Under the pieces are notes generated by a model, which saw only the letters and a list, made by a program, of their open reading frames with translations, did not search any database and was not told the origin of the DNA. 64,000 nucleotides of DNA from contig CALURK010000006.1 in assembly GCA_944323165.1 (NCBI GenBank), positions 1 through 64,000 on the forward strand, written 5' to 3'. Below, one piece after another: positions 1 to 27,250 of the stretch (position 1 is the first letter of the stretch; the number at the start of each line of letters is the position of its first letter). Source of the stretch: Candidatus Gastranaerophilales bacterium (GTDB lineage Bacteria > Cyanobacteriota > Vampirovibrionia > Gastranaerophilales > Gastranaerophilaceae). Made by a program: the position numbers and the translations under genes.

Positions 1-731
1 AAATTAAGCCCCTTGCAAAATTGAGCGTAATTGACAAGATAAGCGTCTGTATATGTATTGTCAATAATGGCGCTGCTGTGTGACATACACTGCAACAAAC
101 GCTCTAATAAGATATGCGTATTTATTGACAATACGACTTTTCCAAGTTTTGCGGATAATGCCAAAGGTATATTATAAAAGGGTTTTAGGTTGTTTATTAA
201 GAAGAAATTATTTTTATTTTCTATAACCTTTTTTGCCGTTTTTTCAATAATTTCAAGGGTTTGAGGCGTTAGTTGTGGCAAATTAGACAGTTTATAATCA
301 GCCCAGTTGGGGGAGAACTTAAGCATGTTATACTTATTAAATGCAATACTATAATAGTTGTAAACGCTTATTATACCTTTGTTTTCAAGACTTTTGAGCC
401 TGTTAAAATCCGATTCGCTAGTTGTTGCAAAATAATAGACAAACATGCCTGTAAACGGCTCATAAGCCCATATAGTCGGCAGGTTAAGCAATTTGAATAA
501 TAGAAGGTTACACGCAATACCTATGCATGGTTGAGAAGGATACACTAATCCTAAATATTGCTTTTGCTCAAGGTAATCTAAAACACACGCTGTGTTTGCA
601 TTTTTAACTACATCAGTTAAGAATTCGTCATCAAGGACAACATCGTAGATAAATCCGGGTTTCCTACCCTGATTTATTTTCTTTTCTTGCTTAAGCCGAA
701 AATCGGCTGGATTAAAAGTTTTTTTGACCAT
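1..731 (-). CDS. Unknown protein of the integrated element, cut by the left window edge
   Basis: An open minus-strand frame of 243 codons runs from the ATG to the window edge with no stop, so the C-terminus is missing. The start is chosen because GGAGATGAG lies about 10 nt upstream. The N-terminus is basic (MVKKTFNPADFRLKQEKK), and residues about 60-85 form a hydrophobic stretch that contains two cysteines (PSQPCIGIACN). I do not recognise a family. It is divergent from the candidate replication gene and shares the repeat-rich spacer with it, which suggests both belong to the same mobile element. Membrane association is possible but not shown. Confidence 0.6.
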   Translation of the reverse strand, partial: MVKKTFNPADFRLKQEKKINQGRKPGFIYDVVLDDEFLTDVVKNANTACVLDYLEQKQYLGLVYPSQPCIGIACNLLLFKLLNLPTIWAYEPFTGMFVYYFATTSESDFNRLKSLENKGIISVYNYYSIAFNKYNMLKFSPNWADYKLSNLPQLTPQTLEIIEKTAKKVIENKNNFFLINNLKPFYNIPLALSAKLGKVVLSINTHILLERLLQCMSHSSAIIDNTYTDAYLVNYAQFCKGLN

Positions 732-799
732 TTTTTCTCATCTCCATTAATGTATAGACATAATAAAATGTAATAATTTAATTTCGGAGAATAAAAATA

Positions 800-828
800 A
801 AAAGGTAATTACATTGTAACTACCTTTT
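800..828 (+). terminator. Hairpin with A/T flanks
   Basis: AAAAGGTA and TACCTTTT form an 8-bp stem, extended by TTAC/GTAA after one mismatch, followed by TGTTTTG. It could terminate transcription in either direction. Confidence 0.4.
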
Positions 829-875
829 GTTTTGTCTATTATTGAGATGACCAAACGGTCTTAACTTCTTTGGAA

Positions 876-897
876 GGTTGGGCTTCCCAACCTGTTT
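876..897 (+). terminator. GGTTGGG hairpin followed by T run
   Basis: GGTTGGG-CTT-CCCAACC followed by TGTTTTTC is a compact intrinsic-terminator shape. The second copy of module B keeps the T run but has a poorer stem. Confidence 0.45.
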
Positions 898-1121
898 TTC
901 ATTGCCATAATAAAATATAATAATTTAATTTCGGAGAAAAGAAAAAAAACAAAAAGGGGAGTTGCCCTACCTTTGGAAGGTGGGTTTGTTTCAACCTGTT
1001 TTTCATTGCCTAATGATAATTGAACATGAATAAACAATAACTAAACAATAAATAAACAATAGATAGGAGCTTTTACATTAGCCTTAAATGTAATAAATAT
1101 AAGACTTTTGAGCTTTTGAAA

Positions 1122-1263
1122 ATTGCACAATGGTAACAAGTAAATTGCACTATAGTAACAATTTGATTGCAACAAGGTAACAAATTTTTTGCACTATGGT
1201 AACGTTATAATTGCAGTATTGTTACTTGTTTTGAGGCGATTATTGCAGAATAGTTACAATTCC
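1122..1263. repeat. 22-bp iteron array (six copies)
   Basis: Copies begin at 1122, 1144, 1166, 1188, 1210 and 1242. The first five are spaced by exactly 22 bp, two helical turns, so a protein would bind one face. The consensus is close to ATTGCAnnATrGTAACAA; the last two copies have GTTAC instead of GTAAC. Such arrays bind Rep initiators in theta-replicating plasmids or repressors of mobile elements. The adjoining downstream gene is the natural candidate for the binding protein. Confidence 0.75.
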
Positions 1264-1319
1264 CTGATGTCTATGAGTTCAAATTATTAAAGTTAATTAG
1301 GTGTATTTGATATATAATT

Positions 1320-2342
1320 ATGTTTATGATATCAGAAATGGAATTTATGCAAGGTGAAATACAATCGCACAGTGTCGATGTTTTAGACAGTTCTTTAGCC
1401 TTGATTCGCTCGGCTATGTCTGTTAGAGATATTGATTTTATTACTAATAAAATTGAGTTTGTCGTAAATGACCAAGAACAATATGATAATCTTAACACTA
1501 TAATAGATTGTGCAATGACAACTTTCACTAATTATTATTATGTTGCAGGTGAAAATTATGTAGAACATCCATATTATGGTGTAACCCTTAGAGTGGGTGA
1601 ACCTTTAGCGGATTATCATAAAAATTATTATGATAATAATCCATTATTTAATTTAGAGTACAAAAAGCTTTCTGATACAAGCAAACAAATATCATTCTCC
1701 ATTAAAAATAAAGACAAATGTAGGCAAGCACTTGATGAATATTGCTTTAGTTACGGTTGTGATTGTGTTTTTAATGAAGAATGTAATACTCTCACATGTG
1801 AAGCACAAAATGAGGCTTTGTATAGTTTACTAACAGCCAATGCTTACAATCTAAGCAATTTTATTGTTAACGATATAAAATATATAAAAGCTATTTGTTA
1901 CAATGAATCCCTTAATAAACTTTCAGTCGTAAGTATAGATATTAATTTAAGCAAGGATAACAAACTTATTTTTAAGGGTGTGATATCTGCTAATGAGTTT
2001 GTAGAAGAATATAATGCAAATGACATAAAAGACAATACAAAAAAAGAACCTAAAACTCCTAAAAACAAGCCAAAGAAGGTAAGAAAACACTTCTCACCAA
2101 ACGTACAAGAATTGTACAATTTCATTAAGATGTACGCAAAGGCTCGAGATTATATGATATATCCTTCTGAATTAATTGGAGAGAAGCCAACAAAACTATA
2201 TGATAAAATGGGAACTCTTACTACTATGGTTAACCGATTAAATGAACAATACCGGGAAATGATACTTGATGAGTCTGTAACCCTTATGCGATATGATAAG
2301 ACCTTAGAATGTTACATGATAAAAGATATTTGGGATAACTAA
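1320..2342 (+). CDS. Candidate iteron-binding replication/regulatory protein (340 aa)
   Basis: I do not recognise the sequence with certainty. It is an acidic, tyrosine- and asparagine-rich protein with a lysine/proline-rich linker at about residues 245-260 (KKEPKTPKNKPKKVRKH). After that comes a C-terminal helical segment that could be a winged helix. It begins about 57 bp after the last iteron, the position usually held by a plasmid rep gene. No strong Shine-Dalgarno is visible before the first ATG; alternative ATGs lie at codons 3, 7 and 10. A replication-initiator role is inference from position only; an element regulator is equally possible. Confidence 0.5.
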   Translation: MFMISEMEFMQGEIQSHSVDVLDSSLALIRSAMSVRDIDFITNKIEFVVNDQEQYDNLNTIIDCAMTTFTNYYYVAGENYVEHPYYGVTLRVGEPLADYHKNYYDNNPLFNLEYKKLSDTSKQISFSIKNKDKCRQALDEYCFSYGCDCVFNEECNTLTCEAQNEALYSLLTANAYNLSNFIVNDIKYIKAICYNESLNKLSVVSIDINLSKDNKLIFKGVISANEFVEEYNANDIKDNTKKEPKTPKNKPKKVRKHFSPNVQELYNFIKMYAKARDYMIYPSELIGEKPTKLYDKMGTLTTMVNRLNEQYREMILDESVTLMRYDKTLECYMIKDIWDN

Positions 2343-2383
2343 ACTGTTATTTACAGAATAACAAGTTTCTAAATTACAATATG

Positions 2384-2412
2384 GCTACTATTCAATAATA
2401 GTAGCTGTTTTA
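2384..2412 (+). terminator. Intrinsic terminator of the 340-aa gene
   Basis: GCTACTATT-CAAT-AATAGTAGC is a perfect 9-bp stem, followed by TGTTTTAG. Confidence 0.6.
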
Positions 2413-2427
2413 GTATGCCTAAATTTT

Positions 2428-2452
2428 CAGAATAACAATAATAGTTATTCTG
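2428..2452. other. Perfect stem-loop upstream of the 52-aa gene
   Basis: CAGAATAAC-AATAATA-GTTATTCTG has a 9-bp perfect stem and no T tract. CAGAATAAC also occurs singly at about 2355, so it may be a protein-binding site rather than a terminator. Confidence 0.4.
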
Positions 2453-2504
2453 GTTATCGTGGTCGGTCAAACTCCTAGAGTACACAACGATAGGAGATAA
2501 CGCA

Positions 2505-2663
2505 ATGACAAACCTAATGAACAATTCCGATGTAACATTCATCGTAGGTAAAATTAAAGTAATAGTTCACACACCTTCTCTTGAAACTACTGATAAGGAA
2601 AACAAAAGACAGTTAGCACAATATCTTTATAAGCTTGTTGAAATGAATAACAAAGCTATGTAA
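2505..2663 (+). CDS. Small element protein (52 aa)
   Basis: The frame starts MTNLMNNSDVTFIVGKIKVI and ends NNKAM, with a good Shine-Dalgarno (TAGGAGATAAC) just upstream. It is predicted to have a beta-rich N-terminal half and a helical end (NKRQLAQYLYKLVEM). It is immediately upstream of the serine recombinase. Small proteins in this position are often excisionases or directionality factors, but nothing in the sequence identifies it as one. Confidence 0.55.
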   Translation: MTNLMNNSDVTFIVGKIKVIVHTPSLETTDKENKRQLAQYLYKLVEMNNKAM

Positions 2664-2682
2664 CACTACAATATTAATTACC

Positions 2683-2724
2683 TTAATACGCCCCTTATTT
2701 GTGATATAATACGCAGATAAGGGG
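2683..2724 (+). promoter_or_regulatory. Recombinase promoter inside an inverted repeat
   Basis: A TATAAT -10 box (2705-2710) with a weak TTAATA -35 (2683-2688, 16-bp spacing) is flanked by CCCCTTATTTG (2691-2701) and CAGATAAGGGG (2714-2724), an 11-bp inverted repeat with one mismatch. The right arm overlaps the Shine-Dalgarno of the recombinase. This suggests an operator for repression of the recombinase gene. Confidence 0.5.
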
Positions 2725-2732
2725 TGTTTATT

Positions 2733-4364
2733 ATGACAAAGAAAAAAGCTAGTATTATTGATACCAATAAGGCTGTAGCATATATTCGAGTATCATCAAG
2801 AGAACAAGAGAAGGGTTATTCTCTTTCTGCACAAGAAAAGCTGTTGCGTAAATATGCGGAAGATGAAGGATATGAAATTGTAGAATTTTTCAGAGAGGCA
2901 ATGAGTGCAAAAACTTCTGGCCGTAAACAATTTAACCTTATGCTTAAATACTTAAAATCCCATAACGATGTAAAGAAACTCCTTGTTGAAAAGACAGACC
3001 GCATAACCCGTAATTTTAAAGATGTTGTTACTTTGGATTCTATCGATGGATTAGAATTACACTTTGTTAAGGAAGGCTCTATCATTTCCGAAAAATCTAA
3101 AAGTCAAGATAAAATGATATATGGTCTAAGAGTGGTACTGTCTAAACAATACATTGATAACCTCAAAGAAGAAGCTGAAAAAGGAATTTTGGCGAAGATT
3201 GAAGACGGTGTTTATCCATCAATAGCTCCTGTCGGTTATTACAATACTATGGATAAGAGAGGTAGGCATATAATAGCTGTTGATGAAGATAAGCGAAGGG
3301 TCGTACAAAAAGCATTTTCACTGTATGCTTCTGGTGATTATTCAGCAAAAACCATCAATGACATGCTTTATCCAGAAGGGCTAACAAATAGAAATGGGAA
3401 TAAACTAGCAAAATCAACGGTAGAAAGAATGTTCAAGAATATTTTCTATATTGGGCAATTTGAATTTAAGGGTTTTGTCTGCACAAATGCTCAACATGAG
3501 GGTATTATTGATATAGATACATTTAATGCTATACAAGAACGATTAGGTGGTGTTGTAAGAGCAAGAACTCACGATGTTCAATTCCCATATCAAGGATTAT
3601 TTAGATGTGGTATGTGTGGGGGCTTGCTTACTCCAGAATTAAAGAAAAAGAAAAGTGGCAAAGAGTACATATATTATCATTGTAATGATACACACAAAAA
3701 GGGTTGTAAGAAATTATCTTATATATCCCAAACTTCTATAGATGAAATTATAATTAAGTTATTAAAAAGCTTTAGTATATCGAAAGAGTTATTTGATTCC
3801 ATAAAAAGCTTTATTAAAGAAATTCATGACGATAAGCACGATTATCAAGAAAAGACAGAGGCTAGTATTACTAGGAAAATAGAGCAAGTAAATAAACGTA
3901 TAAGACAAGCCTATGAAGATAAATGTGATGGCACTATAGATGAAGATTTCTGGAGAGAAATCAACAAGTCATATCATGCTGAAAAGACAGAGCTAATTGA
4001 AGCCCTACATAGAGTAAATGAGGCTGATATTAGATTCTACGAAACTTGCGAGAAGTTATTAAAGTTTGCAAGAAATGCTCATCAAATGTTCTTAAATGGT
4101 TCAGTTGAAGATAAGAGATTTATTACGCAAACAGTATTATCGAACGCCACATATTATGACGGAAACTTTGATGTAGAGCTACATCCAGCATTTGATACCT
4201 TATTTAGGTTAGCCAAAGAAAGTAATCATCAAAATTCAACTATCGAACCACCTGAAACCCAGTCAGAGAGCATAAAAAAAGCACCCGAAGGTGCTAATTT
4301 TAAAAATGGCGGGAACGACGAGGCTCGAACTCGCGACCTCATGCGTGACAGGCATGCGCTCTAA
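2733..4364 (+). CDS. Large serine recombinase (site-specific integrase)
   Basis: It catalyses integration and excision of the element through a 5'-phosphoserine intermediate. The N-terminal resolvase domain has the YIRVSS motif, with S21 the likely nucleophile, and conserved arginines in EKTDRITRN. A recombinase domain follows (about 160-280, GYYNTMDKRGRHI region), then a zinc ribbon (RCGMCGG at about 290, HCN and GCKK near 317-325) and a coiled-coil C-terminus. The ATG is chosen over an upstream GTG because AAGGGG sits at proper distance. The last ~28 residues (GNDEARTRDLMRDRHAL end) are encoded antisense to the tRNA-Asp terminator and tRNA. The natural stop codon was therefore probably replaced by host sequence when the element integrated. 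Confidence 0.92.
   Translation: MTKKKASIIDTNKAVAYIRVSSREQEKGYSLSAQEKLLRKYAEDEGYEIVEFFREAMSAKTSGRKQFNLMLKYLKSHNDVKKLLVEKTDRITRNFKDVVTLDSIDGLELHFVKEGSIISEKSKSQDKMIYGLRVVLSKQYIDNLKEEAEKGILAKIEDGVYPSIAPVGYYNTMDKRGRHIIAVDEDKRRVVQKAFSLYASGDYSAKTINDMLYPEGLTNRNGNKLAKSTVERMFKNIFYIGQFEFKGFVCTNAQHEGIIDIDTFNAIQERLGGVVRARTHDVQFPYQGLFRCGMCGGLLTPELKKKKSGKEYIYYHCNDTHKKGCKKLSYISQTSIDEIIIKLLKSFSISKELFDSIKSFIKEIHDDKHDYQEKTEASITRKIEQVNKRIRQAYEDKCDGTIDEDFWREINKSYHAEKTELIEALHRVNEADIRFYETCEKLLKFARNAHQMFLNGSVEDKRFITQTVLSNATYYDGNFDVELHPAFDTLFRLAKESNHQNSTIEPPETQSESIKKAPEGANFKNGGNDEARTRDLMRDRHAL
4273..4299 (-). terminator. Terminator of tRNA-Asp
   Basis: On the minus strand AGCACC-TTCG-GGTGCT is followed by TTTTTT. 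It lies just downstream of the tRNA and inside the recombinase reading frame. Confidence 0.75.
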
Positions 4365-4384
4365 CCAAACTGAGCTACGCTCCC
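4307..4384 (-). tRNA. tRNA-Asp (anticodon GTC)
   Basis: The acceptor GGGAGCG pairs with CGTTCCC (one G-U). The discriminator is G and CCA is encoded. The anticodon loop is CTGTCAC with GCATG/CATGC stems, and the T arm GAGTTCGAGCC is canonical. It is intact although the integrated element abuts its 3' end. Confidence 0.95.
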
Positions 4385-4469
4385 ATATTCTACTGTCATT
4401 TCCGTAACCTCGCGGCTACATTTAATAATATAGCTTGCTGAATTTTTTTTTGCAAGTACTTATTTTTTA

Positions 4470-4606
4470 TTACCCAATTATCCTACTATAAATTAATCAG
4501 GTCGGGAATTTATTTGTTGGGTAAATTTCTGTTTAATATAATCATTAAATCTTTTTCATACTTCCAGCTATTCTTAATTCCAAGAGCCGATTAGGCTCTT
4601 TTTTTT
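4470..4606 (+). ncRNA. Possible small RNA ending in an intrinsic terminator
   Basis: Between tRNA-Asp and the ZIP transporter there is an 8-bp inverted repeat, TTACCCAA / TTGGGTAA, with a loop of about 45 nt. It is followed by a strong plus-strand terminator (AAGAGCC-GATTA-GGCTCTT plus a T run, 4582-4606). No gene precedes the terminator on this strand except the recombinase. It may terminate a short transcript; no RNA family is recognised. Confidence 0.25.
4582..4606 (+). terminator. Intrinsic terminator before the ZIP transporter
   Basis: AAGAGCC and GGCTCTT form a 7-bp stem with a GATTA loop and six or more T residues. It insulates the transporter gene from the element. Confidence 0.7.
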
Positions 4607-25486: not shown

Positions 25487-27250
25487 TTATAAAGACTTGG
25501 TAATGTCCTCTATGATTAATTCCGGAGTAAGGTGATATCTTTTATATAGCTCTTCAAGAGAGGTTCTGTCCGTAAATTCTTTTTTTGCACCGAAGTTTAG
25601 AACTTTCATTTCTGAGGCACCGAAGAAAGAAGCTATTTTTTCTCCGAAGCCGCCATCTAAAGCTCCATCCTCAAGTGTAATAACCAACTTATGATTATTC
25701 TTTAAAGAATTCAGAAGTTCCTCATCTAATCCTGTTATGAATTTAGGATTAATAAGTGTTGGGTTAATGTCCAATTTTTCTTGAATAAGCTTTTTAACAT
25801 CTTTTCCAAGCTGATAGAAATTACCCAATCCTAATATTGCAATTTCTGAGCCTTGTTCTGTGATTTCATACTTATTCAATATAGAGTAATCTGTCTTATC
25901 ATCTATTCCTGTGCTGATTACTTGAGTTGCAGGAACTCTTATTATTACAGAATGTTCTCTTTGACTTGTTGACCAATCGAGCATTTTTATATACTCTTCC
26001 TTGTTGGTAGGAGCAAGATACACAAGATTTGGAATGTTTGAAATAAGCGGAATATCGTATTTTGTAAGATGAGTTGCATCAGCTCCGGTTATTCCGCCCC
26101 AGAAAACCAATATTGTTGCAGGGGTATTATTTAGAGCTAAATCTTGTGATAATTGATCATAAGCTCTTTGTATAAAAGAACTCATTACTGCAAGAATAGG
26201 TTTAGCACCATTTTTAGCCAATCCGGAAGCGTAAGCAACAGCGTGTTGTTCGGCAATTCCTACATCAGTGAAGTTTTTTCCAAGCTTACTTCTGAATTCT
26301 TTTGTAAACCCGCTTACACCTGGAGTTGCAGGAGTAATTGCTATGATTGTTGAATCTTCATCACGTTTTTTCAAAATATAATCAGCTGTTATACTTTCAT
26401 AACTTTCGATATTTGAAGTTTCTTGGTTATTGTTGCTCAAAGTCCCCGGTAAAATCCAATGGTAGCTCTCTTTGTCTATTTCAGCATTGTGACATCCTTT
26501 ACCCTTTTGTGTGTGAATATGAACAACTGTAGGACGAGTTGTGTCTTTTACTTCTTTAAATACATTTATGAGGCTCTCAACATTATTTCCGTTGTCTACA
26601 TAATAGTAATCGAAACCTAATGTTTTAAAGAAATTATTTTCAGCTTTACCGTTAGTTTCTCTAAGTTCTCTTAAATTTGAGTATAGTCCGCCTTGGTTTT
26701 CTGCAATAGACATATCATTGTCATTAACAATAATAATTATATTGCTGTTAAGTGTTGCAGCATTGTCCAAACCTTCAAAAGCTTCGCCGCCGCTTAACGA
26801 ACCATCGCCAATAAGCGCAATCACGTTTTCTTTTGCGCCTCTCAAATCCCTTGCTTTAGCCAAACCTACCGCTAGGCTGACTGAAGTCGAGGTGTGACCG
26901 ACTTTGAATAAATCATATTCGCTTTCTTCAGGAGCTGTATAACCTGAATATTTTAGGTACTTATCAGGATCTGTAAAGCCTTCTTTTCTGCCTGTAAGAA
27001 TTTTGTGCGGATAACACTGATGCGAAACGTCAAAAACTAATTTATCTTGCGGGGTATTAAATACGTAGTGAAGCGCAATAGTTGCTTCTACTATACCCAA
27101 ATTAGGGCCCAAATGCCCGCCTGTAGTGTTAACTTTTTTCATTATAAGTTCTCGAATTTCTTCGGATAAAATGTTCATTTCTTCAATACTGAGTTTTTTT
27201 AAATCTTCTGTATTATTCACTTTGTCTAAAACCATTGTTGTAGTATTCAT
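25487..27250 (-). CDS. DXS-like thiamine-diphosphate enzyme
   Basis: It is homologous to 1-deoxy-D-xylulose-5-phosphate synthase (pyruvate + glyceraldehyde 3-phosphate to DXP). VFDVSHQCYPHKILTGR (about 73-89), GHTSTSVSLAVGLAKARD and the ThDP motif GDGSLSGGEAFEGLDN are visible. A pyrimidine-binding domain (VGIAEQHAVAYASGLA) and a transketolase C-domain follow. The usual GLxGFxxRxESxYD loop reads SGYTAPEESEYD, and the length of 587 is shorter than the usual 620-640. From memory this resembles a paralogue group in gut Firmicutes, so the reaction may differ. AAAGGAGAG precedes the ATG. Confidence 0.75.
   Translation of the reverse strand: MNTTTMVLDKVNNTEDLKKLSIEEMNILSEEIRELIMKKVNTTGGHLGPNLGIVEATIALHYVFNTPQDKLVFDVSHQCYPHKILTGRKEGFTDPDKYLKYSGYTAPEESEYDLFKVGHTSTSVSLAVGLAKARDLRGAKENVIALIGDGSLSGGEAFEGLDNAATLNSNIIIIVNDNDMSIAENQGGLYSNLRELRETNGKAENNFFKTLGFDYYYVDNGNNVESLINVFKEVKDTTRPTVVHIHTQKGKGCHNAEIDKESYHWILPGTLSNNNQETSNIESYESITADYILKKRDEDSTIIAITPATPGVSGFTKEFRSKLGKNFTDVGIAEQHAVAYASGLAKNGAKPILAVMSSFIQRAYDQLSQDLALNNTPATILVFWGGITGADATHLTKYDIPLISNIPNLVYLAPTNKEEYIKMLDWSTSQREHSVIIRVPATQVISTGIDDKTDYSILNKYEITEQGSEIAILGLGNFYQLGKDVKKLIQEKLDINPTLINPKFITGLDEELLNSLKNNHKLVITLEDGALDGGFGEKIASFFGASEMKVLNFGAKKEFTDRTSLEELYKRYHLTPELIIEDITKSL

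Follow-up and report, generated by a model that had tools for sequence, protein, structure and literature searches.

A likely iteron origin, with a divergently encoded putative initiator, in tRNA-integrating elements of Gastranaerophilales

Introduction

Six short direct repeats lie near the end of a Gastranaerophilales contig, between two divergently oriented genes and close to a tRNA gene, and they raise the question of what the array does and which protein acts on it. The whole stretch of 64,000 nucleotides that was analysed is called the window here; its base 1 coincides with one end of contig C6, in a genome of 1.93 Mb and 33 contigs. A sequence-only reading of the window had proposed a plasmid-type origin kept in an integrative element, with the 340-residue protein encoded beside the repeats as a possibly new replication initiator. 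Comparison with related loci supported the origin as the best reading of the array and moved the initiator to the other side: an initiator does appear to be involved, and it is the 418-residue protein gene, not the 340-residue one, that accompanies the array. We consider it probable that the array forms the part of an iteron-controlled origin to which Rep binds, and that the initiator of this origin is the divergent protein of about 418 residues (gene start 731). The layout is as follows.

3-731, minus strand: Rep gene (putative initiator), 5' 243 codons of a protein of about 418 residues; runs off the contig end
1122-1137, plus strand: iteron 1
1144-1159, plus strand: iteron 2
1166-1181, plus strand: iteron 3
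1188-1203, plus strand: iteron 4
1210-1225, plus strand: iteron 5, GTTAC form
1242-1257, plus strand: iteron 6; 32 bp after iteron 5, with the GTTAC form, in all ten close elements
1320-2342, plus strand: 340-residue protein of no recognised family; probably an integrase-linked accessory protein, not the initiator
2724-4364, plus strand: large serine recombinase (integrase); 3' end encoded within the tRNA gene
4307-4384, minus strand: tRNA-Asp(gtc), integration target; element on its 3' side

Results

The product of 3-731 was 83% identical to a complete homologue in another genome (G053), and a search of the assembly did not turn up the remainder of the gene or of the element. The contig breaks off within the Rep gene, and a genome that is 99.8% complete lacks the remaining part of the element; copies differing in coverage from the chromosome, or strain variation, might account for the missing part. 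Resolvase, Recombinase and zinc-ribbon domains were found in the window recombinase. In an Rfam scan of positions 1-4500 the tRNA alone scored above the gathering score, and one match to the patAB leader lay far below it. Named relatives were mostly metagenome-assembled genomes of Candidatus Gastranaerophilales; others were labelled uncultured bacterium and one uncultured Acinetobacter.

The repeat ATTGCAnnATnGTnAC is present in six 16-bp copies starting at 1122, 1144, 1166, 1188, 1210 and 1242, with start-to-start gaps of 22, 22, 22, 22 and 32 bp, and each copy keeps 11 or all 12 of the 12 fixed positions. At the observed offsets the six 16-mers scored 83 out of 96; 300 dinucleotide-preserving shuffles gave a mean of 57.9 (sd 1.9) and a maximum of 66, which confirms the 22-bp phasing and the longer last step as first described. 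A geometry scan covered four equal gaps of 15-40 bp followed by one gap of 15-60 bp, and 22/32 was the top-scoring geometry in the window among all those scanned. One other match at 11/12 or better was found in the whole 64 kb, a single stray at 26478, and just two further 11/12 matches were found across nine loci of 14-21 kb. The repeats are A+T-rich and direct with a 22-bp period, about whole helical turns apart, and are conserved among related replicons.

1029-1065, plus strand: A+T-rich 11-mers AATAAACAATA, 3.4 copies; beside the iterons, conserved in ten close elements

This stretch, a candidate unwinding element, is only one of several weakly stable stretches; others in the region are equally unstable. 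A search allowing up to one mismatch found no DnaA box in the window region. Single one-mismatch sites were found in five other loci, besides an exact DnaA-box-like TTATGCACA in L058 that adjoins the array, 507 bp from the 418-residue homologue; this exact box is absent from the near relatives L057 and L059.

Homologues of the 418-residue protein were found at 21 places in 19 of the 383 genomes of the family, its own included. In the window and in nine elements in which this protein is at least 75% identical, six repeats were found at 22, 22, 22, 22 and 32 bp, the first of them 362-503 bp from the listed start of the 418-residue gene. What lies beyond the array differed: in the window and in two close elements it is the 340-residue gene, in five of the nine there is a small gene and then another serine recombinase, and in the last two several small genes precede a tyrosine integrase. 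Iterons standing apart from the 340-residue gene, which the sequence-only reading had named as evidence against its own proposal, were thus found in seven of the nine, where an identical array is present and the 340-residue gene is not. Because the array is constant in nine relatives while the gene beyond it varies, it was assigned to the 418-residue gene.

The association extends to more distant relatives. Two loci with a 45% identical protein carry repeats ending in GTwAC with gaps of 21, 21, 24, 20, 21 and 32 bp (hand count). Three loci with a protein about 30% identical carry repeats with the core TATAGCAA; in L057 and L059 these start at 521, 542, 563, 585, 607 and 639, giving gaps of 21, 21, 22, 22 and 32 bp. 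The 32-bp last step is common to 15 loci with the array, including L058, in which three of the six TATAGCAA units lie within one mismatch. The repeat sequence changed at protein identities of about 30-45%, and the spacing of 20-24 bp followed by 32 bp was kept; the generic geometry scan missed 22/32 in L055-L058, where the claim rests on the short core motif. The other six of the 21 places lend the linkage no support: no such array was found in the 225-800 bp read upstream of the gene in G358, G366:C6, G372, G201 and G206 (29-31% identity; 225 bp in L060 and 800 bp in L061-L064, with G006, the sixth and also at 29-31%, left out). Repeats of other sorts exist upstream of these distant relatives (L060-L064). 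Where the usual array is missing in L063 and L064, repeats of the TTCTATTTATT kind were seen, with a best spacing of 26 in L063, and these are possibly another class of iteron.

No convincing match to the 418-residue family was found in Pfam, PHROG, NCBIfam or PDB sequences. Seven members scanned at E values up to 10 gave no match to the Rep3 models, and comparison of the family profile with ten Rep_3 proteins gave probabilities of 0.4-0.9%; a true Rep_3 protein of the same bacterial family (L097) did match the Rep_3 models. An alignment of the core with Rep_3 made by eye was tempting and was unsupported by the profile comparison. This true Rep_3 initiator (G139:C81, L097 550-1317) lies on a 10.9-kb contig and shares 71% identity with an initiator of a small plasmid from an uncultured bacterium; the contig is probably a conventional plasmid of this bacterial group. 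No relatives of the 418-residue protein were found among plasmids, phages and viral contigs, and all 13 matches in a phylum-wide sample of 386 genomes fell in the window's own family.

The AlphaFold2 model of the full protein was of middling quality (pLDDT 72.7, pTM 0.54). A second model, of residues 150-414 (pLDDT 67.7), has a predicted core that contains a winged helix, the one such domain predicted with fair confidence, and this core is preceded by an N-terminal region of about 150-190 residues of unknown fold, for which no usable structural match was obtained. Foldseek returned nothing at E 0.001 or better for either model. In a second look the top match of the core was 4pt7, 'Structure of initiator' (Z 7.4, 88 aligned, rmsd 3.2), followed by the WH1 domain of pPS10 RepA (1hkq; Z 7.3, 95 aligned, rmsd 3.5); a chain of a Rep-DUE complex, 8ac8, aligned over most of its length with a poor rmsd (166 aligned, 14.4). 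Matches to 4pt7, 1hkq, 6h24 and 8ac8 lay at Z 6.1-7.4, tied with CodY, CRP-type regulators, ORC and others. These predicted folds are a lead to a diverged Rep-like core, short of proof.

The leader between the Rep gene and the array is a tandem pair of units, both of which have a hairpin and a conserved TAAAATrTAATAAT box.

764-778, no strand assigned: box TAAAATGTAATAATT, invariant in ten close elements
800-828, minus strand: terminator-like hairpin in the Rep leader, 13 pairs followed by a T-rich tail; candidate attenuator
875-893, plus strand: terminator-like hairpin, 8 pairs followed by GTTTTT; candidate end of a counter-transcript
911-925, no strand assigned: second box copy TAAAATATAATAATT (repeat family D2), in the tandem duplicate of the first leader unit
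966-984, plus strand: terminator-like site in the second leader unit, weak folding

Three terminator-like sites were observed in the leader and 0.3 were expected from shuffles; the Rep strand carries one (828 to 800) and the other strand carries two. The first unit (131 nt) folded better than 200 of 200 shuffles on either strand (z -4.4 on plus, -3.9 on minus), and the second unit alone did not fold better than all shuffles. Among ten sequences, G-U changes that keep pairs were counted in seven cells on the Rep strand and in none on the other, and two pairs of the 875-893 hairpin showed changes on both sides. A promoter scan of the leader gave five hits with 4.4 expected, which is not significant; TAAAATGTAATAATT reads as a -10-like box on the plus strand and may mark the start of a counter-transcript. 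Because the terminator-like hairpin of the Rep leader faces oppositely oriented ones, the sequence suggests a Rep-leader attenuator with counter-transcripts, that is, RNA control of copy number.

Integration at a tRNA gene, as the sequence-only reading had it, was borne out: the recombinase frame of the window element ends inside tRNA-Asp (4307-4384), and the far end of the element is absent from the assembly. Exact direct repeats mostly failed to reveal att sites, and allowing mismatches improved the search. In five of ten related elements examined, near-repeats were found flanking the element, at its tRNA end and its far end, suggesting sizes of about 10.8 kb (L073), 11.3 kb (L074), 12.4 kb (L076), 10.2 kb (L077) and 9.6 kb (L078). 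Neighbouring tRNA genes include tRNA-Asp, -Met, -Glu and -Leu. In L066, L071 and L076, near the tRNA-Met end, the repeat TGGACACAATATGGACAT was seen at both element ends, and these copies are perhaps integrase arm sites. Three types of integrase were found with the array (serine F12, serine F11 and tyrosine F5). Across 14 named loci and G006, a small serine resolvase family was present in all 15 and a partner family of about 91 residues in 14. Ten cargo proteins were scanned and included type III and type IIG restriction-modification, a cytosine methylase, and LmuB-like and PifA/KAP-type proteins; L067, L069, L070, L073, L074 and L076 combine variable defence cargo with one shared replicon. 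No relaxase, secretion or capsid family was recognised among the scanned ORFs of L073 and L076.

The 340-residue gene does begin directly downstream of the array, with a listed ATG at 1320. TATAAT lies at 1313-1318, 1 bp before this ATG. Translation may in fact begin at the in-frame ATG at 1326, which would make the message leaderless, or further downstream. The description of its product as belonging to no clear family held, as no Pfam family and no convincing PHROG match were found, and it has no relatives in viral contigs. Homologues occur in 13 of the 383 genomes of the family, its own included. The two closest (95% and 87%) have the same array upstream, and those at about 60% (G006, G366, G086) have non-iteron sequence there; in G006 and G366 this is a type III restriction gene. 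Nine of 12 other loci (L014-L018, L020, L021, L023, L024) have a large serine recombinase downstream, so the protein tracks the integrase; in L025 the contig ends. L019 and L022 keep the N-terminal part but have a different C-terminal third, and they lack a downstream large serine recombinase; this domain swap uncouples the 340-residue protein from the integrase. By eye, a 330-residue gene beside the integrase in L075 is similar to the end of the 340-residue protein, but it was missed by the 340-residue profile at E≤1. We infer that the 340-residue protein is a DNA-binding accessory protein linked to the integrase, perhaps a directionality factor.

That the 340-residue protein is itself the initiator, with the iterons as its origin, draws on its position next to the array in the window and two close elements. 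This is very unlikely: seven of nine related elements keep the same array in its absence, its homologues at about 60% stand without iterons, and its distribution follows the integrase. The window protein has no Pfam family, and the remote homology to Rep_3 that had been suggested as a check gave 0.4% in a profile comparison. A reading that keeps the array with the 418-residue protein and makes it an operator, through which a winged-helix regulator would control divergent genes without any part in replication, accords with the tie between its fold matches and the CodY and CRP regulators, and with the divergent genes that flank the array in many loci. It is nonetheless unlikely, since the geometry of the array is kept although the genes beyond it change completely, the array stands 362-503 bp from the 418-residue start, and in-phase direct repeats, A+T-rich repeats and a resolvase together form a plasmid pattern.

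Direct repeats can also make up centromeres, and TubR structures were among the weak Foldseek matches (3m8e, E 0.29), so that a parC- or tubC-like site bound by a TubR/ParR-like protein for partition was considered. Of the element ORFs scanned, however, none was recognised as a partition NTPase, and the 418-residue protein is about four times as large as TubR; little probability is given to a centromere. Less still is given to a res or att site of the element recombinase. The repeats are individually weak palindromes (ATTG...CAAT), and the elements encode recombinases, but the form of the array is kept across all three integrase types, the resolvase gene is over a kilobase away and the candidate att sites are located at tRNA genes.

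Discussion

The iteron origin in an integrative element, with the 418-residue protein as initiator, builds on the observed array, its fixed geometry, its linkage to the 418-residue gene, the leader hairpins and the anatomy of the elements. The working of such an origin can be outlined as follows. The integrase would excise the element from the tRNA gene. Rep would bind the six in-phase iterons, five at 22-bp steps and the sixth one further helical turn away, upon which the A+T-rich 11-mers next to them may melt, followed by loading of host replication proteins. Multimers would be resolved by the small serine resolvase. The supply of Rep would be limited by the terminator-like hairpin of its leader, with one or two opposite-strand counter-transcripts as the probable regulators.

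A broader proposal, to which we give about even weight for and against, is that the 418-residue proteins form a new family of iteron-binding initiators, confined to Gastranaerophilales as far as seen, with an N-terminal domain of unknown fold and a diverged winged-helix core. The family would serve a 5 + 1 iteron replicon (22-bp steps, then 32 bp) with counter-transcript attenuation, carried by small tRNA-integrating, defence-carrying elements that swap integrases. If true, this names a replication initiator missed by current family libraries, in a gut lineage for which no plasmid-initiator work was found, and provides a ready replicon for vector building in Gastranaerophilales. It would also mean that a replication module is retained while integrases and cargo are exchanged, and would supply a series of natural origins in which the repeats and the initiator diverged in step while the geometry stayed nearly constant, so that the spacing rule becomes directly testable. 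Among the matches listed in the open-licence PMC literature, none described a Gastranaerophilales initiator or integrative plasmid.

Several known systems resemble parts of this arrangement. In the Rep_3 iteron plasmids (F RepE, R6K pi, pPS10 RepA), as here, in-phase direct repeats lie beside the initiator gene with A+T-rich repeats alongside, and the predicted winged-helix core of the 418-residue protein is a further likeness. Unlike those initiators, this protein shows no sequence match to Rep3_N or Rep3_C (PF01051 / PF21205) and no profile match, and it carries an N-terminal region of about 150-190 residues of unknown fold; the iterons, moreover, are separated from the gene by 362-503 bp, across a hairpin-rich leader. 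Attenuation of rep by counter-transcripts is known from pT181 and pIP501. The terminator-like hairpin of the rep leader facing an oppositely oriented, terminated unit is similar, but here it is combined with an iteron array, and the transcripts are predicted ones.

Small integrative elements and phage-inducible islands target tRNA genes, measure about 10-12 kb and carry their own replication module and defence cargo. The present elements share the tRNA target, the size of about 10-12 kb, a putative replication module and the defence cargo, and differ in their Gastranaerophilales host and in their putative initiator; the element ORFs scanned yielded no recognisable gene for conjugation, capsid or packaging. 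The closest parallel in kind is Salmonella genomic island 1 (SGI1), which is described as a chromosomally integrating element with its own rep and an iteron oriV that replicates after excision (PMC7433901). Its rep encodes a RepA_C domain; the iterons, four in number, are 17 bp long, GC-rich and located downstream of rep, with a DnaA box (PMC7433901). The two have in common an integrating element with its own rep gene, an iteron oriV and A+T-rich regions (PMC7433901), the rep gene and oriV being putative in the present elements. The 418-residue protein, in contrast to the SGI1 initiator, has no Pfam match, RepA_C included, and its six repeats are A+T-rich and lie upstream of a divergent gene, with no DnaA box found. 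The system is known in kind through SGI1, and is new in its putative initiator, its host group and its fixed 5 + 1 spacing.
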